Source of the DNA: Candidatus Sulfurimonas baltica
Lineage (GTDB): Bacteria > Campylobacterota > Campylobacteria > Campylobacterales > Sulfurimonadaceae
Direction: 5' to 3'
Assembly (NCBI RefSeq): GCF_015265455.1
Contig: NZ_CP054492.1
Span: 372,001 to 436,000 of the forward strand
DNA length: 64,000 nt
Positions 6,326 to 39,203 of this stretch are shown in pieces. Under the pieces are notes generated by a model. That model saw only the letters and a program-made list of their open reading frames with translations, did not search any database and was not told the origin of the DNA. Both the position numbers and the translations under genes were made by a program. The first letter of the stretch is position 1. Each line of letters begins with the position of its first letter.

Positions 6326-8308
6326 CTAAAGTTTTTTAATTTTTGTTATCTCATCACGAAGACGAGCTGCCTCTTCGAAGTTTAACTCACGAGCAGCTTC
6401 TTTCATCTTAAGCGAGAGTTCTTTAACCATTGCTTTTCTTTCTGATGCCGGTATTTTATCCATTTTTTTATGTTTTTGATAAATAGCACCATGATCTTCT
6501 ACTTTTAGGTTTGCATCTAATTTACGAATAGTGGTTGTAGGAGTTATATTATGCTTTTTATTATGTGCCTCTTGAATCTCTCTTCTTGCTGTTGTTTTGT
6601 CTATTGCCCTTTGCATAGAGCCAGTGATTTTGTTGGCATATAAAATAACTCTGCCGTTTGAGTTTCTAGCACCACGACCGATTGTTTGCACAAGAGCGGT
6701 TTCGCTTCGCAAAAACCCCTCTTTGTCAGCATCTAAAATAGCCACAAGAGAAACTTCTGGCAAATCTAGACCTTCCCTGAGAAGATTTATACCTATTAGT
6801 ACATCGAATTCTCCAAGTCTAAGTGATCGTATGATTTGGTTTCTCTCAATTGTATCAATATCTGAGTGCATATATTGAACTTTTATTCCCAAATCTGCTA
6901 AATACTTTGTAAGCGCCTCAGCCATTTTTTTCGTAAGAACAGTTATAAGAACACGTTCATCTTTAACTGTTATTTTTTTAATTTCATCGTGAATATCTTC
7001 AACCTGATTATCAGAAGGTTTTATCTCTATAATTGGGTCAAGTAATCCAGTAGGGCGAATAATTTGCTTAGCAATAACACTTGACATCTCTAGCTCATAC
7101 TGAGCGGGTGTAGCTGAAACAAAAAGATAATGAGGAGCTTTATTTATATATTCATCTGCTTTTAGCGGTCTGTTATCTAAAGCACTAGGAAGTCTGAAAC
7201 CGTAATCAACCAAGACATCTTTTCTGGCTCTATCACCTGCGTACATCCCGCGATACTGAGGAAGAGATACATGTGATTCATCGACTATGACTAAATAATC
7301 TTTGTGATTGACCTCAAAGTAGTCAAGTAGTGTAAATGGAGCTTCCCCAGGTTTTTTGTTTGTCAAAAGTCTTGAGTAGTTCTCAACCCCTTTACACATA
7401 CCTGTTGTTTGAAGCATCTCTAAATCAAACTCAACTCTCTGCTTTAGTCTTTGGTGTTCAAGCAGTTTTCCCTCTTTTTGAAAGTAAGCAAGTCTTTCAT
7501 CAAGCTCTTCTTCTATCCGTTTAATGGCTACGGACATCTTCTCTTGGCTTACACTAAATTGTGAAGTTGCATAGATAGTGACTTGTTTATGCTCTTCTAG
7601 TCTCTTGTTATCTATAATCTCAAAAGTGTATATAGCTTCAATCTCATCACCAAAAAATTCTATGCGTATAGCTTCTTGCTCAAAATATGGAGGGTATATA
7701 TCTATGCTCTCTCCGTTAACTCTTATGTGTCCGGTGTCAAAATAGCTGTCATTTCTACTATAGCCCATCTCGACCAAACGAAGAAGAAGTTTCTTTTGAG
7801 GAATCTCATCACCCACTTCTAAAACCTGAACCATATTTTGATACTCCTCAGGGTCTCCTAAACCATAGTTAGCCGATACAGAAGCAATAACTATAACATC
7901 ATCATAACTCAGAAGGTTTGCAGTCGAAGATAGCCTCATGCGCTCAAGCTCATCATTGATAGCACTATCTTTTTCTATGAATAAATCTTGACGAGGTATG
8001 TAAGCCTCAGGCTGATAATAATCATAATATGATACAAAATATTCTACATGTGCATTTGGGAAGAAACCTCTAAACTCACTATACAGCTGAGCCGCTAAAG
8101 TTTTGTTATGAGTCATAATAATAGTAGGCATCTTAACATTCTCTATAACCTTAGCCATAGTGTACGTTTTACCGCTACCTGTTACACCTTCAAGTGTTTG
8201 GTAACGATTACCTTTTAGAATAGAACCACTTAACTCTTTTATAGCAGTAGGTTGATCACCTGCTGGTTCATAAGGAGTATTTGCTTTAAAATTTATTGAG
8301 TTTTTCAT
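6326..8308 (-). CDS. uvrB: UvrB, excinuclease ABC subunit B (host gene of the cassette array)
   Basis: Damage-verifying helicase-like subunit of nucleotide excision repair. The full-length 660-residue protein has Walker A GVTGSGKT (42-49), the beta-hairpin motif [12 protein letters not shown] (94-105), a DESHVSLPQ Walker B region near 343, helicase motifs including QTIGRGARN near 540, and a C-terminal UVR domain. The reading frame is intact although codons 99-104 are the integration site of the adjacent array. The first 104 codons therefore belong to the most recently inserted cassette, and the rest to the chromosome. ATG at 8308 is preceded by TATAAT only 8 bp upstream, suggesting a leaderless transcript. 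Confidence 0.97.
7998..8014 (-). other. Core attachment site inside uvrB (active end of array)
   Basis: The 17-bp core ATGTAAGCCTCAGGCTG encodes QPEAYI (residues 99-104) on the minus strand. It contains the near-palindrome AGCCT-C-AGGCT. To its left the sequence is native uvrB (ACGAGGT); the other copies have a different left flank, usually ending GTGC or TGTGA. Confidence 0.75.
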
Positions 8309-8322: not shown

Positions 8323-8370
8323 CGAAATTGCTGTTTTTCTAGTGAAAATAGGTGCTTTTTTAGAGATACG

Positions 8371-8387
8371 GCTGCCATAATGCTGCC
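8371..8387 (+). repeat. Left hexamer pair of cassette 1
   Basis: GCTGCC at 8371 and 8382, 11 bp apart, followed by GAGAAAT. It begins 373 bp after the core at 7998. Confidence 0.7.
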
Positions 8388-8498
8388 GAGAAATTATTTG
8401 TGATATATTTAAAGTACATTATGTATTGTTGTTACTTTGTGCTATTATTTTGTTGAATACAAGTTTAATAGTAGATATCCTCCAAAGGTTATAAATTA

Positions 8499-12799: not shown

Positions 12800-13091
12800 A
12801 TTACAAAACTTTATAGAAGAATCTTCTTGGACTTTTGCTAAAACCTATTCTGATACTTGGCCTCATTGGTATATCGTTCAAGAACAAGTAGATAACGAAT
12901 TATTTTTAAAGTTGGCAGACTATATAGATGATAATGGATATAAAGAATTTTTTTACTCAAAGCAGATGACTTTTTTTGATTATGGAAAACATACATATTG
13001 GCATATGGAAAATATAATTAATCGATGTTTACTTGCTAATACATATCATAGAAGAGTGGTTGATGGTAGATTGCCTAAAGAAAAAAATTAG
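12768..13091 (+). CDS. Small protein downstream of McrC, unknown function
   Basis: A 107-residue, aromatic-rich protein (FAKTYSDTWPHWYIV, FDYGKHTYWHM, INRC near the end) overlapping the 3' end of mcrC by 32 bp. An alternative ATG lies at 12780. The pattern of an N-terminal AKTxxxxPHWY-like stretch and a YWHM..IINR tail reminds me of small proteins found beside restriction genes, but I cannot name the family with confidence. Translational coupling to McrBC suggests an accessory role. Its stop overlaps the end of the convergent integrase by 4 bp. Confidence 0.6.
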   Translation: MKCFMNILEDKLQNFIEESSWTFAKTYSDTWPHWYIVQEQVDNELFLKLADYIDDNGYKEFFYSKQMTFFDYGKHTYWHMENIINRCLLANTYHRRVVDGRLPKEKN

Positions 13092-14215
13092 TATATTCCT
13101 TCTACAGCTGATACTTTATTCGCCTCACTTAGTTTCATATAGCGAAGGGTCATATTAACGTCCATATGATTCATCAGTTTTTTTATTTCAAACAGTGGTA
13201 CTTGATTTATAGCTAAATGAGAAGCGAAAGTGTGGCGAAGGGTGTGATTGCAAACTCTATGTTTTGCATCATCAATATCTAATCCCTCATTAAACATTTC
13301 GTTATAAATCGGTCGCATGTGATAACCAACGATACGATGTGTTAATTTTCTTCCCTTGTTCCAAAAGATGTAATGGCTTTGTAGAAATGTGTCTATAAAA
13401 ATATAATCTTCAGACAAAAATATTTTAGAGTTTAAATAAGCCGTATACCAGCTTTTATTCTTAGTATCGAAGATTTGTACTGTTTGAGTCTTTAAATCGA
13501 TATTTGAGCGTTTTATATTGAGTATAGAGCTAGCTCTAGCTCCTGTGCTAAGAGCGAACTTCACAAAGTAAAGTAAAAGCTTGGCTATCGCAGGTTTATT
13601 ATCATAAGTATTATCTTCTAGTACAAAAATTAAATTGCGAATTTCATCTAAAGTTAGATACCTTTCGCGAGCATTATCTACATGAATTGTACTTTCTATA
13701 CCTCTAGCATTATTTATAAGATTTGGTAGATACTCTCTTTTTATGAAGTTGTAAATGCTGGATAATATACTAATATGCATAGCTGTAGTAGCTGGTGCAT
13801 GAGTCTGTAGTTTGTAAATTTTATACTCATGTATCTGAGTGTTACTAATATCTTTTAAATCTGTTTTAGCTCCAAAAAAATTAAGAAGATGGTTTTGAAA
13901 TTTTAGATGGGAGTTTCGATAATCGCTAGTTTGCTTCAATTCTAAATATTTAAAATATAAGTCACCAGCATCTTTTAATGTGAATGTTTTTTTAACAGAA
14001 CTATGGGTATCTATATCATTGAGTATCTTCTGCTTTTCACTCTGCATAAATTCATATGCCAATTTCTCACTATATCCAGCTGATTTATAACCGCACTTGA
14101 AACGAGAGTAGTTTCCTTTTTTGGTTTTGTATGAGCAGTAGTAGATGGTGTCGAGGTTTGTTATTCGATGGCTGATGCCTGTGTACTTTTTACTTTTGAT
14201 GTATTGTGTTTTCAA
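13088..14215 (-). CDS. Tyrosine recombinase/phage-type integrase (candidate cassette recombinase)
   Basis: A 375-residue integrase with an N-terminal SAM-like core-binding region (about 75-165) and a catalytic domain holding Arg227 (STGARASS), His324-x-x-Arg327 (HTLRH), His350 (LMNH) and Tyr359 (LRYMKLS), a complete active-site set. A truncated relative lies in an older part of the array at 28841-29271, linking this recombinase type to the cassettes. It is encoded against the direction of mcrBC. The second integrase at 20658 is an alternative candidate for the activity. Confidence 0.9.
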   Translation of the reverse strand: MKTQYIKSKKYTGISHRITNLDTIYYCSYKTKKGNYSRFKCGYKSAGYSEKLAYEFMQSEKQKILNDIDTHSSVKKTFTLKDAGDLYFKYLELKQTSDYRNSHLKFQNHLLNFFGAKTDLKDISNTQIHEYKIYKLQTHAPATTAMHISILSSIYNFIKREYLPNLINNARGIESTIHVDNARERYLTLDEIRNLIFVLEDNTYDNKPAIAKLLLYFVKFALSTGARASSILNIKRSNIDLKTQTVQIFDTKNKSWYTAYLNSKIFLSEDYIFIDTFLQSHYIFWNKGRKLTHRIVGYHMRPIYNEMFNEGLDIDDAKHRVCNHTLRHTFASHLAINQVPLFEIKKLMNHMDVNMTLRYMKLSEANKVSAVEGIY

Positions 14216-16191: not shown

Positions 16192-16734
16192 ATGGTACCT
16201 ACACTACCTACTATAAATGTATATGTAATCGTTGATGAAGATGTTGTGAGTTTTGAAATAAGTAGCTCTCTTCCTGAATTAATTTGTGATGTCCTTTTAA
16301 GTAATATCAACACAAAAAACAACATAAGCAGAAATGATTTTGAGATTTTTATAAATAACTATTATGGAAAATTAGCTCAAGCATTAAAAATAAATATTTG
16401 TGTCGAAGTAAGATATGGAAACCTACTGTATGCTGGACTACAATTTCCACCAACTCTTTTAATATCAAGAAGTGCGCAACAGTTAGATTTACATTCTTAC
16501 GAGATCTCAGAAGATTTTTCTACATCAACTATAGGTCTGATATTAAATCCAAAAGGTTATTTAACACATAAAGGCCTCAAGGCAAAAATCTCAAATTTTT
16601 CTACTTCAGAAATAGAACTTTATAAAATGCTTGACCTCTATTCACTTAAACTTCTACATATAGTCCACAGTAATAAGGGACGTTACCTTCGAAATAGCAT
16701 AAATAATCAAGATTACCTTGCTGATATATTCTGA
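16192..16734 (+). CDS. Hypothetical protein, second gene of the primase-like operon
   Basis: A 180-residue protein with no motif I recognise. ATG at 16192 is preceded by GGGAGGA. Its TGA overlaps the ATG of the primase-like gene (TGATG), so the two are translationally coupled and probably act together in replication. Confidence 0.6.
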   Translation: MVPTLPTINVYVIVDEDVVSFEISSSLPELICDVLLSNINTKNNISRNDFEIFINNYYGKLAQALKINICVEVRYGNLLYAGLQFPPTLLISRSAQQLDLHSYEISEDFSTSTIGLILNPKGYLTHKGLKAKISNFSTSEIELYKMLDLYSLKLLHIVHSNKGRYLRNSINNQDYLADIF

Positions 16735-18050
16735 TGCAAATCTTTTTCACACAATTCACCTCACTGACAAAACCAGTAGTGAAGAGTTATAAAAAAGACT
16801 TTACCAAGAGTATAGGTGCTGCTATGCATCTATCTCGTTATCAAAGATTGCAAGTTCCAAATCTAAAAGCCTTTGATGAGTACCTAAAGCAAATGAGTAG
16901 CTTCGACACGATAACTCTTGGATTAGCTACTGAGGTTTCGGGCTTATCCAAGACAGCTAAAGCCTATAGTGAAATAGAAAATCCGGATTTTATCTTTAGA
17001 GGTAAAAATCACATCAAATATTTCAATGATTTGTACCCATATACTGAGGGTGCGTATTCACTCTATTTTTTTGATATTGATTATGATGAGTCTCAGCCAC
17101 AACACTTTAGAATGAGTACAGTAGAGGAAGTTAGAGCCTCATTAATACTTTTAGTTCCGGCATTAAAAGATTGTGCAATGTTAATCCGTCCTAGCTCATC
17201 TGCTGGAATATACAACAGTCAAACAGGTGAAAAACGGAGTGATAAACCATCGTGGCATATTTATCTAATTGTTGCGAATGCAACAGCTCAAAGTATAGAT
17301 GACTTTAGTGAATATATAAAACGAAGAGCAAATAGAGATGATGTGAATCTTGCATACATAAAAGAGAGTAAATCAGGAGCAAAACTTGAGAGATATTATG
17401 TAGATTTAGCAGTAGCTGACGCCTCTAGGCTTATTGTCGAAGCCAGCCCAACATTAGAGTATCCACTCTCAAAGAAAGTTATAGACAGTACGATTATTGA
17501 GGGTGAGGTGTTAGATTTAACAGCTATCCCTATCGGAGATGAAAAAGATTACAGAAAAAGCACTCAGAAATATATTTCGGGCACCATACACACACACTCC
17601 ACAAAAAATACTTTTATACCTAAATCGTATAATGGAGTAATCCTTATCTCTGAAGAAGATAAAGGCAGAGTTCTTTCTATTTACAGTTACCTAAATGATA
17701 CTTCCAGAGCTGAAACATCCGTTGTTAAAAAGTATCTGAGCCAAACACTTATTGCAGCATATTTAACTTTTTTAGGTTTTACAGTTGACGCAAATTTTAA
17801 GTTCAAAATGAGAGATGAAACGACGTCATCTGCATCAATCTCACATACAAATTTAATCAAAGATTTCGGTGGAACCTTCTCCGGAAATATTATCAGTTTT
17901 CTGATGAAACTATACTCGCTCTCTTTTATAGAAGCGTGGAGTTACTTTCAGAACTGCTTCGGTAAAAATCTCAAACTATCAGTGAAAACACAAGTTGCTT
18001 TACCAGATGCTAAGGCATTTGAGAAGAGCTTATCAAAAAATATTAAATAA
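16734..18050 (+). CDS. Primase-like (archaeo-eukaryotic primase type) replication protein
   Basis: A 438-residue protein with features of the AEP superfamily: an acidic pair in YFFDIDYDE (Asp114, Asp116) and an SWHIYL segment (His175) where AEPs carry the sxH nucleotide-binding motif, followed by RYYVDLAVADASRL and a late helical domain. The motifs fit small plasmid or integrative-element primases that start DNA synthesis. No helicase domain is attached. The assignment is by motif pattern only and other nucleotidyltransferase-like folds are possible. Confidence 0.5.
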   Translation: MQIFFTQFTSLTKPVVKSYKKDFTKSIGAAMHLSRYQRLQVPNLKAFDEYLKQMSSFDTITLGLATEVSGLSKTAKAYSEIENPDFIFRGKNHIKYFNDLYPYTEGAYSLYFFDIDYDESQPQHFRMSTVEEVRASLILLVPALKDCAMLIRPSSSAGIYNSQTGEKRSDKPSWHIYLIVANATAQSIDDFSEYIKRRANRDDVNLAYIKESKSGAKLERYYVDLAVADASRLIVEASPTLEYPLSKKVIDSTIIEGEVLDLTAIPIGDEKDYRKSTQKYISGTIHTHSTKNTFIPKSYNGVILISEEDKGRVLSIYSYLNDTSRAETSVVKKYLSQTLIAAYLTFLGFTVDANFKFKMRDETTSSASISHTNLIKDFGGTFSGNIISFLMKLYSLSFIEAWSYFQNCFGKNLKLSVKTQVALPDAKAFEKSLSKNIK

Positions 18051-20657: not shown

Positions 20658-21236
20658 TTATCTTACAAGTGAATTCTTTATATCGTCCTCTGTGGGGCGA
20701 ATGTACCCTAAAGTTGTATTTATGTTTTTATGCCCAATGAAACTTTGGATGATACGAGGATTTACACTTCGAGAACCCATTTCAGTTATAAGCCCTTGTC
20801 GAAATGAGTGAGATGTGAAACCAGTTCCCAAGATTTGCTTCATATATTTATTTACGAGTTGAATTAAACTAATCTCATGAAAAGTCTTTTTTGGATTTCC
20901 CCATGATGTGATACAAAAGTTATCAAGTTCATTTTCAGCGTAAGTAAAATATTTCTTTATTTCTTTAATTGCACTCTCTGAAAAATATAAAACGCGTTCC
21001 ATTTTAGTTTTATGAGATATTACAACTGTTTCACCATTTTGAATGATGTCATCTACATGGCTGTACTTAATCTGCGTAATTTCATTTACACGTAAACCAG
21101 AATAGTAAAGTAATGAAAATATTTTAAAAAAGCGTTTTTGATTGAACTCTTTAATATCTTCATCGCCTCTTGCATAAGCCATCAACTTTTTATACTCTTT
21201 CTCTGTTATGCTCTTTTTAATTCTCTGAATTTTCAT
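20658..21236 (-). CDS. Short tyrosine recombinase (catalytic domain only)
   Basis: 192 residues from the ATG at 21236, chosen because GGAGA lies five bases upstream; the open frame extends to 21311. It has Arg49 (YSGLRVNE), a basic Lys76, His143-x-x-Arg146 (HSFRQ), His169 (IGHK) and Tyr178 (LGYIRP), a complete active-site set, but no N-terminal core-binding domain. Such minimal integrases occur on small mobile elements. It may be the recombinase of a nested element or a resolvase for the circular form. Confidence 0.8.
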   Translation of the reverse strand: MKIQRIKKSITEKEYKKLMAYARGDEDIKEFNQKRFFKIFSLLYYSGLRVNEITQIKYSHVDDIIQNGETVVISHKTKMERVLYFSESAIKEIKKYFTYAENELDNFCITSWGNPKKTFHEISLIQLVNKYMKQILGTGFTSHSFRQGLITEMGSRSVNPRIIQSFIGHKNINTTLGYIRPTEDDIKNSLVR

Positions 21237-21613
21237 TTTGTCTCCAATTACTATAATTTCTACTGATATAGAGGATTTTATAGTATCCAATCTGACATAC
21301 TGATACCACATAGAGAGTAAAGCTCGCTATAGCTTCAATGATTAGGTTTTATTAGAATTTATAGTAATTGAATTGTATGGCTGTTATTTATTTCAAGGAC
21401 TGAAGACAAAGAGAAAAGACACTATCGAAGCCATATTGTTCTGTATGGTATAAGTAATGTATTCTCATGTGGCAAGATTCTGACTTTGTGAGACTAGCAT
21501 CAGTTTTATTTTAACAACTAAATAATTATTAAAAATACCAGTAAATAGTTTAATTATTACCGATTAATAAATTTTTCAGTATGTTACAATGTTGTTAGAA
21601 AAGGAGATATTTT
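21237..21613. other. Intergenic region between the short integrase and the regulator gene
   Basis: About 375 bp between divergent genes. No gene or strong repeat is visible. AAGGAGA at 21601-21607 is the ribosome site of the regulator. The promoter and operator of the restriction operon should lie in the last 100 bp. Confidence 0.3.
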
Positions 21614-26850: not shown

Positions 26851-26861
26851 ACAATAAAACG

Positions 26862-26878
26862 GCTGCCAATAAGCTGTC
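26862..26878 (+). repeat. Right hexamer pair of cassette 1
   Basis: GCTGCC at 26862 and GCTGTC at 26873, 11 bp apart, followed by GAAACCAT. The conserved box ACCTTAGAAACAAACAG follows at about 26919, and the core begins 105 bp after the pair start. Confidence 0.7.
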
Positions 26879-26944
26879 GAAACCATTCTAAACAAAAACC
26901 TAAAACACTCTAAACACCTTAGAAACAAACAGTTTTAAAAGATA

Positions 26945-27277
26945 CTAGGCAGCTATACCTTTGTGAATGTAAGCCTCAGGCTGATAATAATCATAATATG
27001 ATACAAAATATTCTACATGTGCATTTGGGAAGAAACCTCTAAACTCACTATACAGCTGAGCCGCTAAAGTTTTGTTATGAGTCATAATAATAGTAGGCAT
27101 CTTAACATTCTCTATAACCTTAGCCATAGTGTACGTTTTACCGCTACCTGTTACACCTTCAAGTGTTTGGTAACGATTACCTTTTAGAATAGAACCACTT
27201 AACTCTTTTATAGCAGTAGGTTGATCACCTGCTGGTTCATAAGGAGTATTTGCTTTAAAATTTATTGAGTTTTTCAT
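26945..27277 (-). pseudogene. uvrB': Displaced uvrB 5' fragment (codons 1-104 plus 6 foreign codons)
   Basis: Starting at ATG 27277 the frame encodes UvrB residues 1-104, then HKGIAA and a stop. The uvrB portion and its TATAAT box read as identical to the functional 5' end at 8012-8308. Walker A is retained, so if expressed this would be an N-terminal UvrB peptide. It marks where uvrB joined the older array before cassette 1 entered. Confidence 0.85.
26967..26983 (-). other. Core attachment site between cassettes 1 and 2
   Basis: Exact 17-bp core. Its left flank is the cassette-type TTTGTGA rather than native uvrB; its right flank is uvrB. Confidence 0.75.
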
Positions 27278-27338
27278 TGGTGAAATTATAGCATTTAGTT
27301 GTGAATGGTTTGGATTTGAGGTGATTTTATTGCATATG

Positions 27339-27355
27339 GCTGCTATCAGGCTGCC
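27339..27355 (+). repeat. Left hexamer pair of cassette 2
   Basis: GCTGCT at 27339 and GCTGCC at 27350, 11 bp apart, followed by GAGAAATT. Confidence 0.65.
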
Positions 27356-27437
27356 GAGAAATTTAAGGATTTATGCTACTTAGTTACCAAAAGATATCAT
27401 ATTTATGTCCCTTATCATAAATTTTTAATATATACTT

Positions 27438-27470
27438 AAAAAAAATGATTAACTTTTAATCATTTTTTTT
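27438..27470. terminator. Bidirectional A/T hairpin in cassette 2
   Basis: An A-run, ATGATTA, a short loop, TAATCAT and a T-run form a symmetrical intrinsic-terminator-like hairpin between the uvrB fragment and the small ORF. It would insulate cargo from neighbouring transcription. Confidence 0.6.
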
Positions 27471-27526
27471 AAAACTTGAATAAAAATAGATTTTTGTGGC
27501 TATAATTCTGTTTCAAATTTTAATGA

Positions 27527-27751
27527 GTGAGGAAAAGCTTGTATATTAGCATTAGTAAAAAACCTTCAAAAGAAGAAATAGCAGCGTTTAACATGAAAGT
27601 TATTGAAGAAGACACAATAGTAGACTATAAGATTGAACTTGCCTCTCTTGATCAGGCAGTAAAAAAGCAGTTTTGTGAATCCTATGGTTTAGCACAAAAA
27701 AAAACTGAGAGTGTCATTAACATTACACTTAGTTATAATCATGAAGTTTAA
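27527..27751 (+). CDS. Small cassette protein, 70-74 aa, unknown function
   Basis: The frame can start at GTG 27527 or, better, at TTG 27539, which has GAGGA a few bases upstream. The product reads LYISISKKPSKEEIAAF, then a charged body ending LSYNHEV. A one-residue variant lies at 42299. An overlapping ATG at 27523 encodes only MSEEKLVY before a stop, a possible leader peptide or sign of a frameshift. The sole cargo of two cassettes, it may be an antitoxin-like or regulatory protein; no family recognised. Confidence 0.5.
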   Translation: MRKSLYISISKKPSKEEIAAFNMKVIEEDTIVDYKIELASLDQAVKKQFCESYGLAQKKTESVINITLSYNHEV

Positions 27752-27879
27752 TTGTCTTTGTAAACTGTCATAATCTCTAATTGTAGACGAAGGACCAAAA
27801 ATTATCAGTATAACGCAAGTTGTATCCATATTTTAAGAAATTTTGGTATCAAGATAATGTCGAAATTAGCTCCGATTCT

Positions 27880-28043
27880 ATAACCTTAGCCATAGTGTAC
27901 GTTTTACCGCTACCTGTAACACCTTCTAGGGTTTGATAACGATTACCTTTTAGTATAGAGTCAGTTAATTCTTTAATAGCAGTAGGCTGGTCACCTGCTG
28001 GCTCATATGGAGTATTTGCTTTAAAATTGATTGAGTTTTTCAT
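27880..28043 (-). pseudogene. uvrB': uvrB 5' fragment, divergent copy (codons 1-55 region)
   Basis: ATG at 28043 opens a frame matching UvrB residues 1 to about 56 (AKVIE), then an unrelated tail. It differs from the current uvrB mostly at third codon positions (for example KELTDSI for KELSGSI), so it came from a different uvrB lineage. It keeps a TATAAT at the usual distance from the ATG. Confidence 0.8.
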
Positions 28044-28104
28044 TGATAAGATTATAGCATTTAGTTGTGAATGGTTTGGATTTGAGGTGATTTTATTGCA
28101 TATG

Positions 28105-28121
28105 GCTGCTATCAGGCTGCC
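28105..28121 (+). repeat. Left hexamer pair of cassette 3
   Basis: GCTGCT at 28105 and GCTGCC at 28116, 11 bp apart, followed by GAAATATT. Confidence 0.6.
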
Positions 28122-28217
28122 GAAATATTATTTATTACTGAGTTCTTATAGGCTACTTTAAACACCATACATTACGGTATTTAAAGTTGTGTTTGTAATA
28201 ACAAGAAAGTAATATAT

Positions 28218-28529
28218 TTAGTTATTAGCAGATACAGTTGCTTTCTCATAATTATTGATAAGCTCTAAGTTATAAGTTGTAACCCATTTATGAAGAGATA
28301 TTGCATCTAGTACCCACCAGACAAGCATCGCTAGTAAACCAATATAACCAACAACAATGATCATAGTAAGAAAGCTTAAAATACTAATAATAAGCATAGT
28401 GGCACCATTACTTTTACCCATATAAAAACGATGCGCTCCAAAAAGTCCAAGAAACCACCACATTATATATGCTATAACAGCACTCTTTTTCTTTTCCTCT
28501 AGTCTCATTTGTTCTATATTTACGCTCAT
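28218..28529 (-). CDS. TM2-domain membrane protein
   Basis: A 103-residue protein with the TM2 signature: two transmembrane helices around a short turn, WWFLGLFGAHRFYMGK, then GATMLIISIL and a WWVLDAISL motif. TM2 proteins are widespread small membrane proteins with no settled function. AGGAT precedes the ATG. It is the first cargo gene after the hexamer pair of the third cassette. Confidence 0.8.
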   Translation of the reverse strand: MSVNIEQMRLEEKKKSAVIAYIMWWFLGLFGAHRFYMGKSNGATMLIISILSFLTMIIVVGYIGLLAMLVWWVLDAISLHKWVTTYNLELINNYEKATVSANN

Positions 28530-28676
28530 GTTTTCATCCTTATATAATAAACTTTAACCATTATTATTACTTTCTATATATAAGTCAAGTTTAATATGAA
28601 AACATATTAAAAATAATTATAATTGTTACAAAAAGAGACTTAATTATGATAAATCCATAAGGTTTATTCCAAATGA

Positions 28677-28838
28677 TTTATATCGTTGGGTTTTGGAAAA
28701 CACAGTACTAAAACTTTATACCAAGTATATAATGAAGACTTACAGTATTTTAACTGGTTGTTTGAGGAAGGAGGTTTGCAGTTTGGACATAAGAAAACTT
28801 CACCAAATATTGAATATACCACAGAAGATACATATTGA
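28677..28838 (+). pseudogene. Remnant of an ExoX-like C-terminal domain protein
   Basis: An open stretch of 53 codons without a start reads GFGKHSTKTLYQVYNEDLQYF, then NWLFEEGG, and ends in TGA. The pattern FGKHxxKTLxxVYxxDxxYxxWL matches the small domain found at the C-terminus of ExoX-like exonucleases and DUF3820-type proteins. The upstream part is missing, so it is a tail fragment directly abutting the integrase remnant. Confidence 0.5.
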
Positions 28839-28840
28839 TT

Positions 28841-29271
28841 CTAATAAATGCCTTCTACAGCAGATACCTTATTCGCCTCACTTAGCTTCATATAGCGAAG
28901 GGTCATGGAGACACTTCTATGATTCATAAGCTTCTGTATCTCAAATAATGGCACTTGATTTATCGCTAAGTGAGAAGCAAAAGTGTGGCGAAGCGTGTGG
29001 TTGCAAACTCTAAACTTATAATCATCATCTGCTAACCCTTGATTAAACATATCGTTATAAATTGGTCTCATATGATAAGCAACAATACGATGTGTTAATT
29101 TTCTCTCTCGATTATAAAAAATAAAATCATTAAACCTAAAACTATCTATAAAGATAAAATTCTCCGAGTTGAAAATCTTAGAGTTCATATATGCGGTATA
29201 CCAGCTTTTATTCTTAGTATCGAAGATTTGTACTGTTTGAGTCTTTAAATCGATATTTGAGTGCGCATGAC
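28841..29271 (-). pseudogene. C-terminal remnant of a cassette-type integrase
   Basis: The frame corresponds to residues from about 237 to 375 of the integrase at 13088 and keeps HTLRH, LMNH and LRYMKLS, but the N-terminal part with Arg227 is gone. It is cut at 29271 by the IS21-family element. About 80 bp next to the break read as identical to 13450-13509 and neighbours, while the rest is clearly diverged, indicating a mosaic origin. Confidence 0.85.
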
Positions 29272-29368
29272 GTTCAAACGGGCCACCAATCGCGGAGACA
29301 TCCGGCCACCCTCTAAGAGGATATTTTCTGTAGCATCATTTTAGCATAAAGTGGCCGGATGTTGATTT

Positions 29369-30121
29369 TCAATACTCTACATTTTCGGCTAATGAGTTGA
29401 TTTTTCTCATAGATGGTCCACTAAGTTGTATCCTATGCGATGAGTGAACAATCCTATCTAAAATTGCATCTGCAACTGTATTGTTATTGAGATAATTATA
29501 CCACTCACTCACAGGAAGTTGAGACGTGATGATAGTTGAGTTTATGGATGTTCTATCTTCAATAATTTCAAATAAATTTGTTGCATCATTATCTGCCATT
29601 GGTATAACGCCGAAATCATCAAGTACCAGCAATTGAAATCGTGAATACTTTTTTAGAACATTGATATATGTTCCATCAATTCGAGCAAGTCGTATCTCTT
29701 CAAGTAGTGATGGCATCCGCACGTAAGAGACCTTGTATGAATAATGAATCGCATGATTGGCATAGGCTTGAGCTAAATAACTCTTGCCTGTACCAGTTTT
29801 TCCAGTGATAATAATATTTTGTTTTGCAGTAATGAAATTAAGTTGAGCAAGAGATTGGATTTGTGCTTTATCCAAATGCCTTTTTGGATTATACTCTATA
29901 GCATCAAGTGCTGCTTGTTTGTCTTTAATCTTAGAAAGTCTGTGATTCATTGTAATTTTTTTATTTTTTAAAAAGAGGTCTTGCGCGTCAAGGAGTTGGT
30001 ATAGCCTTTCTTCGAAACTCATTTTTGTATAGTTGATATCCTCACACTGTCTCTCATAAGATTCTTTTAACCCTTTATAGCCTAAATCTTCTATCTTCTC
30101 TTGTAGTTGTGAATGTGTCAT
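29369..30121 (-). CDS. istB: IstB-like transposition helper ATPase (copy A)
   Basis: A 250-residue AAA+ ATPase with Walker A GKTGTGKS at 107-114 and Walker B LLVLDDFGV near 165, followed by DRTSINSTIITSQ and a sensor region. Helper of the IstA transposase. It follows istA by 18 bp on the same strand, the usual IS21 order. Intact. Confidence 0.9.
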   Translation of the reverse strand: MTHSQLQEKIEDLGYKGLKESYERQCEDINYTKMSFEERLYQLLDAQDLFLKNKKITMNHRLSKIKDKQAALDAIEYNPKRHLDKAQIQSLAQLNFITAKQNIIITGKTGTGKSYLAQAYANHAIHYSYKVSYVRMPSLLEEIRLARIDGTYINVLKKYSRFQLLVLDDFGVIPMADNDATNLFEIIEDRTSINSTIITSQLPVSEWYNYLNNNTVADAILDRIVHSSHRIQLSGPSMRKINSLAENVEY

Positions 30122-30139
30122 TTTTTAAATCCTTGTTTT

Positions 30140-31708
30140 TTATTTGTACTCATCAGCACCACGAAGGTTTTCGTGTGTATTGAAAAGTGTAGGTATCATA
30201 TAGTCTCTATTATTTGAACTTTTTTGTAAGTAGAGTCTTTTGTCCAGCACTGAACGAATTGACTTGACTCTTGTAAGCTTATGCTCTATTGCATACATTA
30301 AGGCTAATTCAAACTCTGTATTTCCATACTCTTTTGCCATTTTTAGAACAGACATAATCTTTCTAAACGCTTGTTCTTTATACCCCACAGATTCAAAGCA
30401 ATCTTCTATAAACACAGAGCTGTACTCTCCAATACTTTTTGCCCAAGAACGTAAGCGTTCTGGATTCCATTTGTTATGGATATATTCATGATCTGGGGAA
30501 CGATGCTCATTGAGGGTAGAGAATGTACCGACTGTTCTTAATCTTGGATGTGTTGCAATAATTTCATTGCTGTAGTATATTCGCACATGATGTGTGGAAT
30601 ATCGAACTTCAACCTCTTTTTGCATATATTGAAATGGCACTGAGTAGTTGCACTTTTCTAACGTAATGTGATAATCAATGCCTACTTTGGCTCGTTTGTA
30701 TTGCTCATAGATATAGCGATTCGCAGGGAGTGCTTGGAGCTCATCTTTCTCAAGTTCTTCAAAGAGTTGTGTACGGCTCTTATTGATATGTTTCATCACT
30801 TTATTGTTGTATCTATCCATAAGAGAAGCTATAGCATCATTAAGCTCATCTACACTAAAAAACTTTGTATGACGAAAGCAGGCTAAAATATATCGTTGTA
30901 TCCCTTGAACTCCTTGTTCAGCTTTGGACTTATCTTTAGGTTTATAAGGACGCGCTGGTTCTACTCTCATAGAGTAATGCCTTGCTAATGCTGCGTAACT
31001 TTCATTGATAACTATTCCATTTTTATTGTTGGAGATGACAGCACTTTTAAGATTATCTGGGACTACGATCTGCGGCACTCCACCAAAGAATAGGTAAGCT
31101 AAAGTATGTGAAAGTATAAAGTCTTCTTGTTTTTGGCTAGGTGTTGCGTGTACAAATGTGTAACCACTAGCACTAAGTACTGCAACAAATATTTGTGCAC
31201 TATCTATTTCACCAGTTTTTTGGTTATAAATAGGGATAGTAACACCACTATAATCTACAAACACCTTCTCTCCTGCTATATGTATTTGACGCATTGATGG
31301 ATTGAGTCTTTGTTTATAACGTCTGTAGTAAACCCGAAACTGTGTGTATGCATACGCTTGTTCACTATATGTTGCTTTATACTCTTCCCATAGAAGCATC
31401 AGTGTAACTTTTGTTTTTTTCTTACGCTTCATCTCTTGATGAACGCTATTGTAGTCTGGCATTATTTTAGAAGGATTTGGAGTAATAGTTGTGGATGTTA
31501 TACCAAATAGTTTTTGATTGAGTGTTTCATCATTGATGTTTGTAAGCATTTCATACGTAACAATATCACTTTCATTACATCGCTTGATATACTCTTGTAC
31601 TGTTGTTCTAGCTACACCTGTAGCCCCTTGAATTTTTCGAGCAGAGAGGTTTGCAAGCAAATACAATCTCAATACTTCTCTTATCTGTTTCATATCTATT
31701 TTCCTCAT
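30140..31708 (-). CDS. istA: IstA-like DDE transposase (copy A)
   Basis: A 522-residue transposase with an N-terminal HTH (LSARKIQGATGVARTTVQEYIKR split over about 21-43), the rve integrase core starting at KVFVDYSGVTIPI with its catalytic Asp, PDNLKSAV (second Asp) and a conserved region with KSKAEQGVQ (Glu), and a C-terminal beta-barrel region. Full length for the family. Confidence 0.9.
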   Translation of the reverse strand: MRKIDMKQIREVLRLYLLANLSARKIQGATGVARTTVQEYIKRCNESDIVTYEMLTNINDETLNQKLFGITSTTITPNPSKIMPDYNSVHQEMKRKKKTKVTLMLLWEEYKATYSEQAYAYTQFRVYYRRYKQRLNPSMRQIHIAGEKVFVDYSGVTIPIYNQKTGEIDSAQIFVAVLSASGYTFVHATPSQKQEDFILSHTLAYLFFGGVPQIVVPDNLKSAVISNNKNGIVINESYAALARHYSMRVEPARPYKPKDKSKAEQGVQGIQRYILACFRHTKFFSVDELNDAIASLMDRYNNKVMKHINKSRTQLFEELEKDELQALPANRYIYEQYKRAKVGIDYHITLEKCNYSVPFQYMQKEVEVRYSTHHVRIYYSNEIIATHPRLRTVGTFSTLNEHRSPDHEYIHNKWNPERLRSWAKSIGEYSSVFIEDCFESVGYKEQAFRKIMSVLKMAKEYGNTEFELALMYAIEHKLTRVKSIRSVLDKRLYLQKSSNNRDYMIPTLFNTHENLRGADEYK

Positions 31709-31905
31709 TGCAACACCTTTGTAAATTTTACAAAGAGTGTAGGTAAATTTAGAAAATATCTCTTAGAGTATTCAGCTAATTCTTAACTGAATATAAAATC
31801 GCGGACTCAGGCACAAAGTGGCCAGATAAGCTCCGTCATCACTGGCCGGATGTCAAGCGACATGGGTGGCCGGATAAAAACGCGATGGGTGGCCAGTTTG
31901 GTGCG

Positions 31906-33003: not shown

Positions 33004-33176
33004 ATTTTGTATTTTAAAAATATAATTGTGCCTTTAGTTTTTAACATTAGCTATATTACTTATGGTAACACGTGTATAATCTTCTAAATTTTGTGTTATT
33101 AGTTAGTCATAGAATAAAGATAATAGTGTTACTCTGGAATGTCCCCTATAAACTAGACATATATTTAGCAAACACA

Positions 33177-33193
33177 GCTGCCGATTAGCTGCC
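33177..33193 (+). repeat. Right hexamer pair of cassette 3
   Basis: GCTGCC at 33177 and 33188, 11 bp apart, followed by GAAACAAT. The core starts 105 bp after the pair start. Confidence 0.7.
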
Positions 33194-33281
33194 GAAACAA
33201 TCCAAGAAGAAATCATAAAACACTCTAAACACCTTAGAAACAAAGATTTCTAAGCGTGCCTATGCTGCTAAGTTAGAGTGC

Positions 33282-33298
33282 ATGTAAGCCTCAGGTTG
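33282..33298 (-). other. Core attachment site between cassettes 3 and 4
   Basis: ATGTAAGCCTCAGGTTG, one mismatch to the uvrB core, preceded by AGAGTGC. No uvrB fragment follows, so this cassette has lost or never had one. Confidence 0.65.
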
Positions 33299-33562
33299 AT
33301 TTTCGTTATGCTTCATATTTAACTTCATTCTGTTTTAATATGATTATATTACTAAAACAGAATAAAATTACCTGTATTGTGAGTTATTAAAAGGTAATAA
33401 AATAGTTCATTTTAATGTTCGTTAAGTTCGAATAAATTAAATATTACTAGTTAATCTTGACAAGTATGAAATTTGAAGTTTTCTTCTAACCATGGATTTT
33501 CTCCATAGTTCTTAAATTAAGCTCAATATTGTACTCCAAATATTTGACTTAGACTGTAAAAT

Positions 33563-35170
33563 TTAATACTTTAGTTGTACTAGTAATATATCTAAATTAT
33601 CAAATTTTTGATTTGTATCACTCATTAGTGCTCTGAGCATTTCTTTATCATTTTTCTTTTTGTCAATATAATAAACAACCATAGTAATTGATAAACCAGT
33701 AATAGCACCAACAAACACAGCAGTGATAACATCAGCAAAAGGTTCTAAAAAAGCAGTTCCTCTTATCAACTTATCTATATATTCTTCAGCCATTACACCT
33801 AAACTAACAATTAATCCACTGGCAATTAATTTTTTCGCCTCATGCATAGCATCTTCATAGCTCATGTTTTCAGGTGGAAATGTAAGTAACTTAACAGCCC
33901 TAAATAATGAGAACATTCCTTCCCTTATAATTCTAATAACTCTTTTTCCAGTTGTTACAAACATATTAATAACAGTAGTTGCTAAATTTGATATAAATCC
34001 TGAGATAAAACCATCTTTAAAAGCTATAGCTGCCTCTTTCCATTTAGCACTTACTCTAGTCGCTATTTTTTTTAACCTATCTTTTAATACAACAAAAAAT
34101 CTATCATCATCAAAGCCATGAGTAAAACCATTTTTGTATATATCTAAAATCTCATCAAATACAGCAGTAAAGAACTCAGTTATGATGAGACCTAACGCCT
34201 GCTGTATTCCCATTTTAGCACCTTCTTTTCCTCCTGCTAATACAGTATCTTTAGCAAATTTACCACTAGTATAATATTTCTCATTTATTTCTTTATCATA
34301 TTCTTTTCTAGCTTTATCATCTAATTCTTTTACTTTTTCCTCATCAACTTCTGTTACTCTTTTTAATCTAGCTAGCCCCTTTTCTTCTTCAGGAGTTAAG
34401 TCTTGTTTTGCTTCTAGGTTATTTATTTTTTCTTTATTTATTTGTACTCTATTTAAAAAATCTGTAGCAGAGTCTTCTTGTTTTGAACCATTAACACTTT
34501 GTGATGTTGCTGTAAAATTACTATCTTTATTAGCTAATTCACTACCATCTAAACCAGCTAATACTCTACCATCATCATCATGGACTTCTTTTGCAGCAAT
34601 TACATGTTCTACTTGATCATTTGTATCTTTATCAAATAAATTTCCGGTATAACCATCAACAAGTTTTCCTTCTTCCTTAAGTTGTGTATTTTTTTGTCTT
34701 TCATCAGCATAATTTGAATTATTGTCATGATAATCTTTAGAAATATAATCTCCTTTATCATCATAATTTAGTTTTGCCTCATCTGTTGCATATACACCAT
34801 TTTTATATTCTATTCCATCAGAATCTATAAAGTCCTTATTACGTACATTATGAATTGTATCAACATTTCCACCAGCCTTATCATATGCTGCGACAACTTT
34901 ACCTAGCCCAAATGGAGTTACAATAGAATTTATAACTTCTTTTTTACAATCGTTTATAAGCTGATTAAACCTTTCATCATTAAAGTCTTTTTTAAATTTA
35001 ACTAAAAAATCTTCTGCTTCATCTTTTGAAACATTAAAATCATATTTAAAATCATAATGCTCATCAAAACTTGCATATACTTCTGCAATCGAAGTATTAT
35101 TTAGATTACCTTTAATTAAAACTTTTTGTTTTAAATTTTTTCTTCTATTGTGTCTATCCACTCTTGACAT
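33563..35170 (-). CDS. Large membrane-associated protein of the TerB-like module, unknown family
   Basis: A 535-residue protein. The N-terminal half is hydrophilic and acidic, with a segment YTGNLFDKDTNDQVEHVIAA, then AKEVHDDDGR, that has the look of an HNH-type EHxxxxxE nuclease or processing region. A coiled-coil-like stretch covers about 245-300 (LTPEEEKGLARLKR). The C-terminal half has several hydrophobic or amphipathic helices (about 310-345, 385-410, 450-510). The gene lies 29 bp downstream of the TerB-like gene on the same strand, so they form a two-gene unit. A toxin or defence effector is possible; function not assigned. Confidence 0.6.
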   Translation of the reverse strand: MSRVDRHNRRKNLKQKVLIKGNLNNTSIAEVYASFDEHYDFKYDFNVSKDEAEDFLVKFKKDFNDERFNQLINDCKKEVINSIVTPFGLGKVVAAYDKAGGNVDTIHNVRNKDFIDSDGIEYKNGVYATDEAKLNYDDKGDYISKDYHDNNSNYADERQKNTQLKEEGKLVDGYTGNLFDKDTNDQVEHVIAAKEVHDDDGRVLAGLDGSELANKDSNFTATSQSVNGSKQEDSATDFLNRVQINKEKINNLEAKQDLTPEEEKGLARLKRVTEVDEEKVKELDDKARKEYDKEINEKYYTSGKFAKDTVLAGGKEGAKMGIQQALGLIITEFFTAVFDEILDIYKNGFTHGFDDDRFFVVLKDRLKKIATRVSAKWKEAAIAFKDGFISGFISNLATTVINMFVTTGKRVIRIIREGMFSLFRAVKLLTFPPENMSYEDAMHEAKKLIASGLIVSLGVMAEEYIDKLIRGTAFLEPFADVITAVFVGAITGLSITMVVYYIDKKKNDKEMLRALMSDTNQKFDNLDILLVQLKY

Positions 35171-35199
35171 AGGAACACCTTTTTTATTATTTAAATAAA

Positions 35200-35895
35200 T
35201 TAAGCAGCTAAATTATTTTGTATTTCTTGTAAAAACTTTTTGCTTATATCATCTTTTTCTTCTACATAGTTATCAGCATCTAACTCAACAATGGCATCAA
35301 AACCTAGTAAAAACTTCTCTTCTTTTGGATGGATACCATCAACTTCCATAGTAATTAAAATTAAATCTCTAATACTATTATAATTTTTAGGATTGACTTT
35401 TTTTAGATATTCATATGATTCAGCAAAACTAGGTGGGTTATCCCTCAAAGTACGAATAGCATTTTTGACATGTTCTGGATATGATGAGCTTGCAATACCA
35501 CCTACAAACTCATCAATTTCTGCTAACTCTGCTTCGGATACATGTCCATCAGCATTCGCTACAGCCATTCCTATTGCTGTTGAAGCAATTATATAATTAA
35601 AGTATTCCTTATCTCCCTGAAATTCAATAATAGCTTCTTTAATAGCTTTTTCATATTTTTCTGCTTTCCTATTTGAGGCAGTTTCTTTCTCTTCTTTTTC
35701 TTTTTCTTCTTTACGTGATAAAATAGCACCTGCAGTAGCACCAACAGCTGCTGCACCAGCTGCAGCTACCCCGGCTCCAGCTAAAGAAGCACCTAATGTC
35801 ACTGCACCTAAAATTGAACCACCACCTGTAAATGGTGCCGCAGCAACAGCACCTATTCCTAACGCTGCTAAACCTAAAATTTTACCAAAACCCAT
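35200..35895 (-). CDS. TerB-like domain protein with glycine-zipper N-terminus
   Basis: 231 residues from the ATG at 35895, preferred because AGGAGA lies just upstream; the frame extends to 35925. Residues 1-62 are a Gly/Ala-rich, membrane-inserting glycine-zipper-like segment, followed by a charged linker of KE repeats, then a TerB-like helical domain (IGMAVANADGHVSEAELAEI and MEVDGIHPKEEKFL, the two DG-containing metal-binding loops). TerB proteins are linked to tellurite and phage stress systems at membranes. It pairs with the large downstream protein. Confidence 0.7.
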   Translation of the reverse strand: MGFGKILGLAALGIGAVAAAPFTGGGSILGAVTLGASLAGAGVAAAGAAAVGATAGAILSRKEEKEKEEKETASNRKAEKYEKAIKEAIIEFQGDKEYFNYIIASTAIGMAVANADGHVSEAELAEIDEFVGGIASSSYPEHVKNAIRTLRDNPPSFAESYEYLKKVNPKNYNSIRDLILITMEVDGIHPKEEKFLLGFDAIVELDADNYVEEKDDISKKFLQEIQNNLAA

Positions 35896-35968
35896 ATCAT
35901 TCTCCTGTATAAATATAATATTCATTATAGTAACATTTTTCTTTTTGTGACCTACTTCATATAATTTT

Positions 35969-36400
35969 CTAAGAATTTCTTATTTTATTGTAACCTAATG
36001 TAAAACTATCTTCATCACATAATATTTGATTATAATGTTTCATAGCCATAGAAAACCTTTTATAGCTATCTTCTGCATTTTTGCTTATAGTTTTTTCTGA
36101 GCCAAATGTTAGATAAATATTGTAGCCTTGGGCGGCTCTTTTACCAATCACAAAGCCTCTTCTGTATTGTCTATATATTTGAAGCCTTATTTTGAAGATT
36201 TGGTAAATATTTACATCAATCCTGCTCTTTTTTCAATGTCCAAAACTTTTTTATAATGTTTATATTTCTTTATAGAGCCTACAAAAATATTGCACATAAC
36301 TAAGCTGCAACTAAATCTACATGTATAGTATCTTTTTGTGTCGCTTGTCCCATCGCTTTTACTAGAAGTGATAGTATTTCAACTTGATTAATACTTTGCC
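35969..36400 (-). pseudogene. Decayed coding remnant of unknown family
   Basis: Minus-strand frames contain protein-like stretches broken by stops: QSINQVEILSLLVKAMGQAT with QKDTIHVDLVAA, then VGSIKKYKHYKKVLDIEKRA, then RQYRRGFVIGKRAAQGYNIY running to a stop at 35969. Together they look like one gene with a frameshift and nonsense codons. No family recognised. Confidence 0.35.
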
Positions 36401-36430
36401 ATTGGTCAAATAGTTTTAAATGTCTCTAAG

Positions 36431-36544
36431 GATGAAATTATTATGATTCAGAACAGACTTAACCATAGACCTAGAAAAGTACTTGGATATAAAACTCCAT
36501 ATGAAGTATTTTTTAGTGAAATGAGTAGAAAGCTAGCTAGTTAA
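36431..36544 (+). pseudogene. IS30-family transposase C-terminal remnant
   Basis: Thirty-seven codons reading QNRLNHRPRKVLGYKTPYEVF and ending in TAA, the hallmark C-terminus of IS30-type transposases (LNxRPRKxLGYxTPxEVF). The rest of the element is absent. Confidence 0.8.
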
Positions 36545-36609
36545 TTTAGGTGGAAATTGCACTTGATATTAGAATTGGCGATTCTAATTCATCAGTTATC
36601 TGCTCATCA

Positions 36610-36891
36610 CTAAAACTTCTGCTTCTCAAGTTTCAAATCAGTTGTTATGTCATTGTTTTCAATGTTATGTTTTTGTAAAAACTCTTGATATTCTCGCATT
36701 GATGTTTTATAGATATTTTTTTTGAACTTATGAAACTCTTTTGATTTTATTGAATTTTTCACTGTTCCACTATCAGCTTTTTCAAATGTAGATGACTCAT
36801 TATCCCAAGGACAACCTTCTTCATCGCATATCTCTTTTATGGCATAACTAACGACTGCTAATGTAACTTCACCTATTATTAATGGTATCAT
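36610..36891 (-). CDS. Small hypothetical protein, 93 aa
   Basis: A hydrophobic N-terminal helix (IPLIIGEVTLAVVSYAI) is followed by an acidic and lysine-rich tail with a CDEEGCPW motif. AGGAG-like sequence (AGGAGAAAGAC) precedes the ATG. Probably membrane-associated. No family recognised; orientation matches the TerB-like module but the IS30 remnant lies between. Confidence 0.5.
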   Translation of the reverse strand: MIPLIIGEVTLAVVSYAIKEICDEEGCPWDNESSTFEKADSGTVKNSIKSKEFHKFKKNIYKTSMREYQEFLQKHNIENNDITTDLKLEKQKF

Positions 36892-37020
36892 GTCTTTCTC
36901 CTCTTTTTGTTGTAGAGAAAGTATATGATTAGTAAGCGAAAGATTAGTTCGTTTTATGCGTCTAGATATTATTTATAAAATAAAGTTGATTTAAAATTTG
37001 AAGTAAGAGAAGTTTGTAGC

Positions 37021-37054
37021 AATTAAAGAACTTGGACTATCAAGTTCTTTAATT
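37021..37054. terminator. Strong hairpin, probable terminator
   Basis: AATTAAAGAACTTG pairs with CAAGTTCTTTAATT around a six-base loop, a perfect 14-bp stem, followed on the + strand by GTTTTATATTTTA. It lies just after the end of the WYL pseudogene. Confidence 0.6.
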
Positions 37055-37085
37055 GTTTTATATTTTACCTAAAAACTTTAAAAGA

Positions 37086-37448
37086 TTACATTGAAACATA
37101 CACTTTTAGTTCATCTAATAGTTTTTCTTGTAAATATTCTGGTTCTATAATTTTTATGTGTGGCATCCAATACCTTACTATTTTTAAAATCTCATCATCA
37201 TAGGATACTTTTGTTTGCAGTACAAGTTTTTCTTTTGTATTTTTCAGAACAGTTTGATTTGGAAGAAGTTATCTTCTTAAAAAATATTCAGACACATCTA
37301 CATCTATTTCTAAAATAACATTGATACTATCTTGCGAAAACCAATTTGCTTGATTTTTATTTATTATCTCTAAAAACTCTCTATTTGCTTGAAACTTATT
37401 TTCTGTTTTTTGTTCGGCACTGTATGTTTGACCCTTTTTTCGACTCAT
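37086..37448 (-). pseudogene. Remnant of a WYL-domain transcriptional regulator with nonsense codon
   Basis: A 121-codon frame, interrupted by an in-frame TAA at 37269-37271. After the stop the frame continues with LLPNQTVLKN, VSYDDEILKIVRYWMPHIKI and LQEKLLDELKVYV, the typical end of WYL regulators. The start MSRKKGQTYSAEQKTE resembles an IS3-type OrfA start, so the 5' end may be a fusion. The central part of a normal 300-residue WYL protein is missing. Confidence 0.6.
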
Positions 37449-37496
37449 GATTTATCTCCATATTTCGTATTATTTTAACTTTTTTGAAAATAAACC

Positions 37497-37997
37497 TTGT
37501 TGAATTGGTGTCTTAAATATTCAGGCCATTATATATCAATGAAACAAGCGGATGATTTAATAACGGTAAGCCCATATATGGATGAAAAATTAGCTTCAGG
37601 TTGGATAAGTAATGCAAAAGTTTTAAGAAGTAATAAAACTACCAATATTACTTCTTTATGCTATTTGGGTGAAGGTTCACTGTTTAATGTACTCCAATCT
37701 ATTGGTATACCATTAGTGATAGAAAATGGAGATGCACGAAGTTCTGAGTTTAATAGTATTAAACAATCATTATTTCTATATCCTGTAATGTCAACTTTTT
37801 TAAATACTCTTCTCAATGAAGAGAATAAAGCAGCATGTAAACTCTGTGCGTATTGTGCTAATAATACTGATATTATGAATTATGATACTTTATGTGATGC
37901 CTTTCCATGGAATAAGAAAGTTAACGAAAAAAAAATGTGTCCCTTTTTAGATATAAAAAGGATGTGGGGGTTTGAAAATAAAATTCTTAACAGGTGA
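37497..37997 (+). CDS. Hypothetical protein, probably 5'-truncated
   Basis: The longest start is a TTG at 37497 with no clear ribosome site, directly after an in-frame stop. The 166-residue product has a cysteine cluster ACKLCAYC and a second KMCPFLD near the C-terminus, which could bind metal. No family recognised. It ends just before the right hexamer pair of cassette 4, the normal place for a last cargo gene. Confidence 0.4.
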   Translation: MLNWCLKYSGHYISMKQADDLITVSPYMDEKLASGWISNAKVLRSNKTTNITSLCYLGEGSLFNVLQSIGIPLVIENGDARSSEFNSIKQSLFLYPVMSTFLNTLLNEENKAACKLCAYCANNTDIMNYDTLCDAFPWNKKVNEKKMCPFLDIKRMWGFENKILNR

Positions 37998-38035
37998 TGA
38001 TAAGTAACATCAATTAAAATAATTTTAACTAAACA

Positions 38036-38052
38036 GCTGTCAATAAGCTGCC
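38036..38052 (+). repeat. Right hexamer pair of cassette 4
   Basis: GCTGTC at 38036 and GCTGCC at 38047, 11 bp apart, followed by GAAACCAT; 105 bp before the core at 38141. Confidence 0.7.
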
Positions 38053-38140
38053 GAAACCATCCCACTCAAAAACCTAAAACACTCTAGACACCTTAGAAAC
38101 AAACAGTTTTAAGAGTAATTATGCTACTAAGTTAGAGTGC

Positions 38141-38157
38141 ATGTAAGCTTCTGGCTG
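38141..38157 (-). other. Core attachment site at the start of toxin-antitoxin cassette 5
   Basis: ATGTAAGCTTCTGGCTG, two or three mismatches to the uvrB core, preceded by AGAGTGC. Confidence 0.65.
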
Positions 38158-38183
38158 GTTTTTATCACAAATATACTATATGA

Positions 38184-38456: not shown

Positions 38457-38457
38457 A

Positions 38458-38691: not shown

Positions 38692-38781
38692 AACATTACC
38701 TTTTATAAATAAATTTTACTAGATTATTATAGCAAAATACATTTGTATATTTTTGAAATAATTTTATTAGCTTGAAACTTG

Positions 38782-38798
38782 GCTGCCAAAAAGCTGCC
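38782..38798 (+). repeat. Right hexamer pair of cassette 5
   Basis: GCTGCC at 38782 and 38793, 11 bp apart; 105 bp before the core at 38887. Confidence 0.7.
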
Positions 38799-38886
38799 AA
38801 AACCATCTCACTTAAAAATCTAATACACTTTAAACACCGTAAAAACAAACAGTTCTAAGGGATATTAAGCTACTAGCCCTCTGTGC

Positions 38887-38903: not shown

Positions 38904-38929
38904 GTTTTTATCACAAATATACTATATGA

Positions 38930-39202: not shown

Positions 39203-39203
39203 A

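Follow-up and report, generated by a model that had tools for sequence, protein, structure and literature searches.

A tyrosine recombinase and its probable role in integrative elements that stack at uvrB in Candidatus Sulfurimonas baltica

The gene at 13088-14215 (minus strand) of the window, the whole 64,000-nucleotide stretch of Candidatus Sulfurimonas baltica DNA analysed here, very probably encodes the site-specific recombinase of a family of integrative elements for which uvrB is the attachment gene and which stack there into an array. In the proposed mechanism, the product of this gene (INT) would join a circular unit to uvrB inside the sequence TGTAAGC, which lies in a core of GAGG and CCTC half-sites around the 8-bp TATGTAAG, within the codons for YQPEAYIP. 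Paired GCTGCC arm repeats with a spacing of 11 bp are probably bound by INT too; at the right end, one is placed outside the core at a distance of 102-105 bp, and the other lies 372 bp inside, 5' of uvrB. As the attachment region of a unit would bring codons 1-105 of uvrB and the DNA upstream, a full uvrB would be rebuilt and the old 5' end displaced outward. Repeated insertion at this one site would result in an array that grows next to uvrB, while older units would decay via insertion of IS elements and deletion. INT would presumably catalyse the excision of units as well as their joining, and units without an integrase, among them uvrB-less toxin-antitoxin and defence cassettes with the common right-end site, are probably moved in trans.

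INT and its association with uvrB

The reading frame of INT is open over 375 codons, as the first-pass annotation had described for an intact tyrosine recombinase in cassette 1, and it starts with a TTG codon preceded by AAAAAAGAG. INT matched PF00589 (Phage_integrase; E 1e-20), the sole Pfam family found in it. The catalytic domain is intact with a complete R-K-H-R-H-Y set, and R227, K252, H324, R327, H350 and Y359 are invariant in an alignment of four intact homologues. No Pfam arm-binding domain was found in INT. A beta-beta-beta-alpha pattern at the N-terminus was seen only in a low-confidence AlphaFold model and, as this model is poor (pLDDT 48.5), an arm-binding domain like that of lambda- or Tn916-type integrases is only suggested. 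No excisionase was recognised for the uvrB elements. In cassette 1, a McrBC insert stands between INT and the uvrB end, which are 4.8 kb apart, compared with 0.8 kb in simple elements such as that of G018, where both arms are present and the distance from the end of INT to a uvrB 5' fragment is 0.77 kb.

It had been suggested that the uvrB units go with the larger integrase type, and this was supported when INT was searched for in 228 genomes of the same family. The search shows a sharp gap, with 12 other loci at about 62-84% identity, followed by C-terminal pieces at about 50% and then by matches at 38% and below; the four intact members group as one clade with a support of 0.99. Ten clade loci could be judged (G018, G151, G216, G200, G113, G162, G215, G050, G075 and G047, the piece in G200 being detected only by direct comparison). 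In the sequence, all ten adjoin uvrB or one of its 5' fragments, lying on its 5' side, in the same orientation and within about 4 kb. The clade loci on a second G018 contig and in G058 lie near contig ends with no uvrB there, and were left out of the ten. For INT-like loci at 25-37% identity, uvrB was found in the flanks, mostly about 9 kb per side, of none of 20 (Fisher p = 3e-8). The C-terminal relatives at about 50% identity (G119, G194, G038 and G207) were not beside uvrB in the sequence available.

When 85k bacterial and archaeal species were scanned, only three more full-length clade members were found, all in uncultured Campylobacterales-type genomes. None was found among the viral contigs of IMG/VR or the plasmids of PLSDB, so carriage of the clade by phages or plasmids is unsupported by these collections.

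An active uvrB array in a genome lacking this integrase type had been named beforehand as evidence that would speak against the association. uvrB arrays were resolved in 15 genomes, with INT or a remnant in seven and neither in eight (G098, G133, G204, G137, G172, G175, G185 and G227), of which only G098 is complete. G098 does have a uvrB array and no clade member, but its array is degenerate, which points to loss or to supply in trans rather than to another recombinase. The arrays without INT can be explained by fragmented drafts and decay, and could also reflect supply in trans.

The core site, the arm repeats and the units of the array

The intact uvrB lies at 6326-8308 (minus strand), and its codons 1-105 (about 7990-8308) would have been supplied by the newest element. 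The core, an inverted repeat of GAGG-TATGTAAG-CCTC, is found at 7993-8008, and the left arm repeat, GGCTGCC-N5-GCTGCCGA, at 8370-8389 (plus strand), which places it 372 bp from the core and 62 bp upstream of where uvrB starts. At the far end of unit 1, the right-end site (26861-26983, plus strand) consists of an arm repeat, about 85 bp, and a core (ATGTAAGC at 26967). It is followed by the left arm repeat of the next older unit at 27338-27357 (plus strand), and another right-end site, at 33176-33298 (plus strand) with its core at 33282, opens a uvrB-less unit.

Displaced 5' fragments of uvrB were found on the minus strand at 26960-27277 (codons 1-106), 27855-28043 (codons 1-63, with a left arm at 28104) and 39626-39943 (codons 1-106), and there are other short pieces at 42627-42728, 43478-43531, 48557-48712 and 52194-52265. 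Every intact displaced copy ends in the codons for YQPEAYI. The displaced ends have one site of about 130 bp in common, the same site ends the uvrB-less units, and in both kinds of unit the changeover of sequence can be read directly within TGTA[A/C]GC. Arm and core are 102-105 bp apart at each of 12 displaced junctions, of which five belong to the window and the others to G018, G151, G216, G204 and G175, and a second copy of the arm is located at the inner end, about 61-62 bp 5' of the uvrB start. With up to one mismatch allowed, the arm repeat occurs eight times in the whole 2.74-Mb genome, always in the array and on one strand, whereas a reversed-pattern control gave no occurrence in the same genome, which speaks against a chance pattern. 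In some more diverged arrays (e.g. G200, G227 and G162), the core and its left flank are recognisable and the arm repeat was not found with the pattern used.

In the uvrB-less units, the core TGTAAGCTTCTGGCTGGTTTTTATCACAA is similar to that of uvrB, TGTAAGCCTCAGGCTGATAATAATCATAA, although there is no need to encode uvrB there, and the 20 bp adjoining the core are still uvrB-like without coding for uvrB. This likeness where uvrB is not encoded suggests that the stretch is a recombinase half-site. One such unit (4.9 kb, 33282-38140) contains PDC-M40B (33563-35170), a candidate gene for defence, together with a TerB-like gene (35200-35925). It is followed by two copies of a 746-bp toxin-antitoxin cassette on the minus strand, at 38141-38886, with its right-end site and a ParE/RelE-like toxin at 38184-38456, and at 38887-39632. 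The two copies are in exact tandem. As the bodies (641/641 bp) and the sites following them (105/105 bp) are identical, while the site preceding the first copy differs (82/105), the duplication is bounded exactly at the core; it could also have arisen via replication slippage or unequal exchange. Both the 746-bp and the 4.9-kb units lack an integrase and carry the common right-end site intact beside a related element, a layout like that of cis-mobilizable elements or accretion arrays. Similar toxin cassettes were found in the uvrB arrays of at least six other genomes (G200, G151, G216, G162, G227 and G185). The cargo in the window is mainly for defence, including McrBC, an MvaI/BcnI-type restriction-modification pair, a GmrSD-type protein, a HEPN protein, PDC-M40B and the toxin-antitoxin pair. 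Relaxase or conjugation genes, which would mark an ICE or IME, were not recognised among the cassette 1 proteins, each of which was searched in at least one of Pfam, PHROGs, NCBIfam and PADLOC.

Comparison with the sister genome G098 shows on which side the array grows. The two genomes have the distal part of the array in common (43.5-48.7 and 49.8-52.1 kb of the window, at 96-97%), but G098 lacks the 35 kb next to uvrB in the window and has about 13 kb of other genes there instead, so new units have been added next to uvrB. A uvrB fragment with a TM2-type gene (27855-28700) lies near unit 1 in the window, and its homologue in G098 is in the distal array, indicating that this unit changed place within the array.

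Decay is illustrated by a sister of INT in cassette 3. The first-pass annotation had recognised there the C-terminal third of a close relative, nearly identical to INT next to the break and diverged in the remainder, and each part of this description held. The remnant (28841-29261, minus strand) corresponds to INT residues 237-375, about the last 140 codons, with 82.7% amino acid identity and 80.9% DNA identity over 420 bp. Beside the break, 66 bp are identical and 76 of the first 80 bp match, while the remaining DNA ranges from 55 to 92% per 40 bp (about 79% across this remainder). The break coincides with the edge of an IS21-family element (29262-31880, outer ends approximate, minus strand; IstB 29369-30121, IstA 30140-31708), and as no N-terminal part of INT was found past this element, the sister gene is truncated rather than split. 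A second IS21-type element, at 40013-42107, is inserted within a left arm repeat (GGCTGCTAT / CTATCAGGCTGCC, with CTAT duplicated), and the sequence past it, 42108-42725, repeats 27336-27953 at 99.5%.

The N-terminal part of uvrB shows a higher identity than the C-terminal part in G018, which belongs to another genus (81.3 vs 72.7%), and in G123 (86.7 vs 78.7%). This contrast would fit horizontal exchange of the 5' end, but it is only suggestive as the two parts of uvrB differ in conservation. Separately, G096 has three identical-scoring full-length uvrB matches on two contigs, two of them inverted on a contig of 36.6 kb, which is possibly an assembly artefact.

The small recombinase and other explanations for the array

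The second integrase of cassette 1 (20658-21311, minus strand) had been described as having only a catalytic domain, and its 217 residues agree with this. The suggestion that it belongs to a nested replicon stands in one part: the gene is part of a replicon backbone, together with a primase-like protein (orf438, 16734-18050, plus strand), orf384, orf100 and orf98, and this backbone is found again at other sites, where the large integrase is a different one. Nesting of a second element is the less simple view, since cassette 1 has only one large integrase and is more simply seen as this replicon carrying a uvrB-type integrase. In the same genome, the region at 975-995 kb contains orf438 at 58% identity (at about 987 kb), orf384, the small recombinase and orf100 with a different large integrase. 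In G085, a 77% relative of the small recombinase is located at 735 kb and uvrB about 1.5 Mb away, at 2.275 Mb; the element containing this relative also has orf100, orf98, an orf142-like piece and a large integrase at 31%. The backbones at G000:C1:975000-994900 and in G085 (orf438, orf384, a DUF2958 protein and the small recombinase) have different large integrases and occupy different sites. The genome as a whole has a high integrase load, with 27 Phage_integrase matches in its 2.74 Mb.

It could be argued that the small recombinase drives integration at uvrB and that INT is cargo or a relic, as G204 has a 78% relative of the small recombinase 1.2 kb from a uvrB 5' fragment with no INT-clade member found, and G018 also encodes an 80% relative. 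We consider this improbable. The small recombinase has no arm-binding and core-binding part, its relatives recur away from uvrB in the same genome and in G085, where another large integrase is in the element, and G151 and G216 lack a close small recombinase but carry an intact INT at uvrB. Taken with the co-location of the INT clade and uvrB, the recurrence of the backbone with other large integrases indicates that the large integrase keeps to the target site, whereas the small one travels with the replicon and is not site-determining.

A slightly less probable explanation is that the repeated uvrB 5' ends result from tandem duplication and homologous recombination, with the integrases hitch-hiking. 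Array copies within one genome are indeed similar (up to 97%), with patches of identity that look like gene conversion, and some segments are duplicated at 99.5%. However, in many species the fragments stop at the same TGTAAGC and a single conserved 130-bp site comes next, and sister genomes have unrelated genes in the proximal part.

We give even less credence to mobilisation of the units by a host Xer recombinase of the XerH type, as in Xer-dependent integrative elements. A 291-aa Xer-like recombinase is encoded about 17 kb from uvrB in the same genome (G000:C1:363002-363445) and at a similar distance in several relatives, and uvrB arrays without INT exist. Xer sites normally have no distant arm repeats, and no clear dif-like site was found at the junctions: the core ATGTAAGCCTCAGG is unlike the dif motif tried, for which there were scattered imperfect matches only. 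The co-location of the INT clade with uvrB would also be left unexplained. Just as improbable is a variant integron in which INT collects cassettes via folded single-stranded sites: the short cassettes with a common end site, the exact tandem copies, the toxin-antitoxin cassette and the one recombinase are integron-like, but INT scored 27.7 bits against the integron-integrase model TIGR02249 (cut-off 265), the right-end sites mostly fold no better than shuffled sequences (z +0.2 to -2.7 for five sites on both strands), and there is no attI, the anchor being a coding gene rebuilt by each large unit.

Relation to known islands and meaning for the family

With INT as the recombinase, the array works as dusA-type islands with tandem accretion, not as an integron. 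The dusA islands and prophages are placed by a tyrosine integrase in the 5' portion of a conserved gene. They bring a replacement promoter and 5' coding end and leave the gene's own 5' end at the far junction, and tandem insertion has been reported (PMC4482086, PMC8409611). The insertion layout at uvrB is the same, with a new 5' coding end and upstream region supplied and the old end displaced. The differences are the target, the replacement of 105 codons instead of about 35, the long array with units down to about 0.75 kb, the paired GCTGCC arms at fixed distances and the narrow host group. The ssrA islands of Dehalococcoides are also in tandem at one gene, each with a repeat of the target gene and a conserved flanking motif, and many have no integrase (PMC3146451). 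They resemble the uvrB array in tandem accretion at one gene and in integrase-less units; however, they use CcrB-like serine recombinases at the 3' end of the tmRNA gene, whereas the enzyme here is a tyrosine recombinase and the target is a protein gene, entered in its 5' part. SXT enters the 5' end of a protein gene, prfC, and supplies a new promoter and N-terminus (Hochhut and Waldor 1999, as described in PMC8409611). The uvrB elements likewise enter the 5' part of a protein gene and supply its new 5' end, but SXT is a large self-transmissible ICE, while in the uvrB arrays no conjugation genes were recognised and minimal units are present. Ordered short cassettes, a common recombination site and one recombinase are features in common with integrons, from which the array differs by having no integron-integrase signature, folded attC-like site or attI. 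In a full-text literature search, no paper was found on uvrB as an integration gene, nor did the literature searched contain this combination of features at uvrB, with units as small as 0.75 kb.

A more tentative and somewhat doubtful extension is that a single integrase works in trans, stacking toxin-antitoxin and defence units of 0.75-5 kb that have no integrase of their own in an array anchored at uvrB and thereby doing the job of an integron with ordinary double-stranded sites, while larger units keep exchanging uvrB codons 1-105 between lineages.

To summarise, a probable recombinase, together with core and arm sites, can be named for a defence island that has been built repeatedly in one Campylobacterales-type family, which makes excision and the trapping of new cassettes directly testable. 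uvrB is added to the genes used for integration, and it is cut in its most conserved codons. The array also illustrates how roughly one sixth of a core repair gene can be exchanged by mobile elements, which possibly pass that part between lineages.
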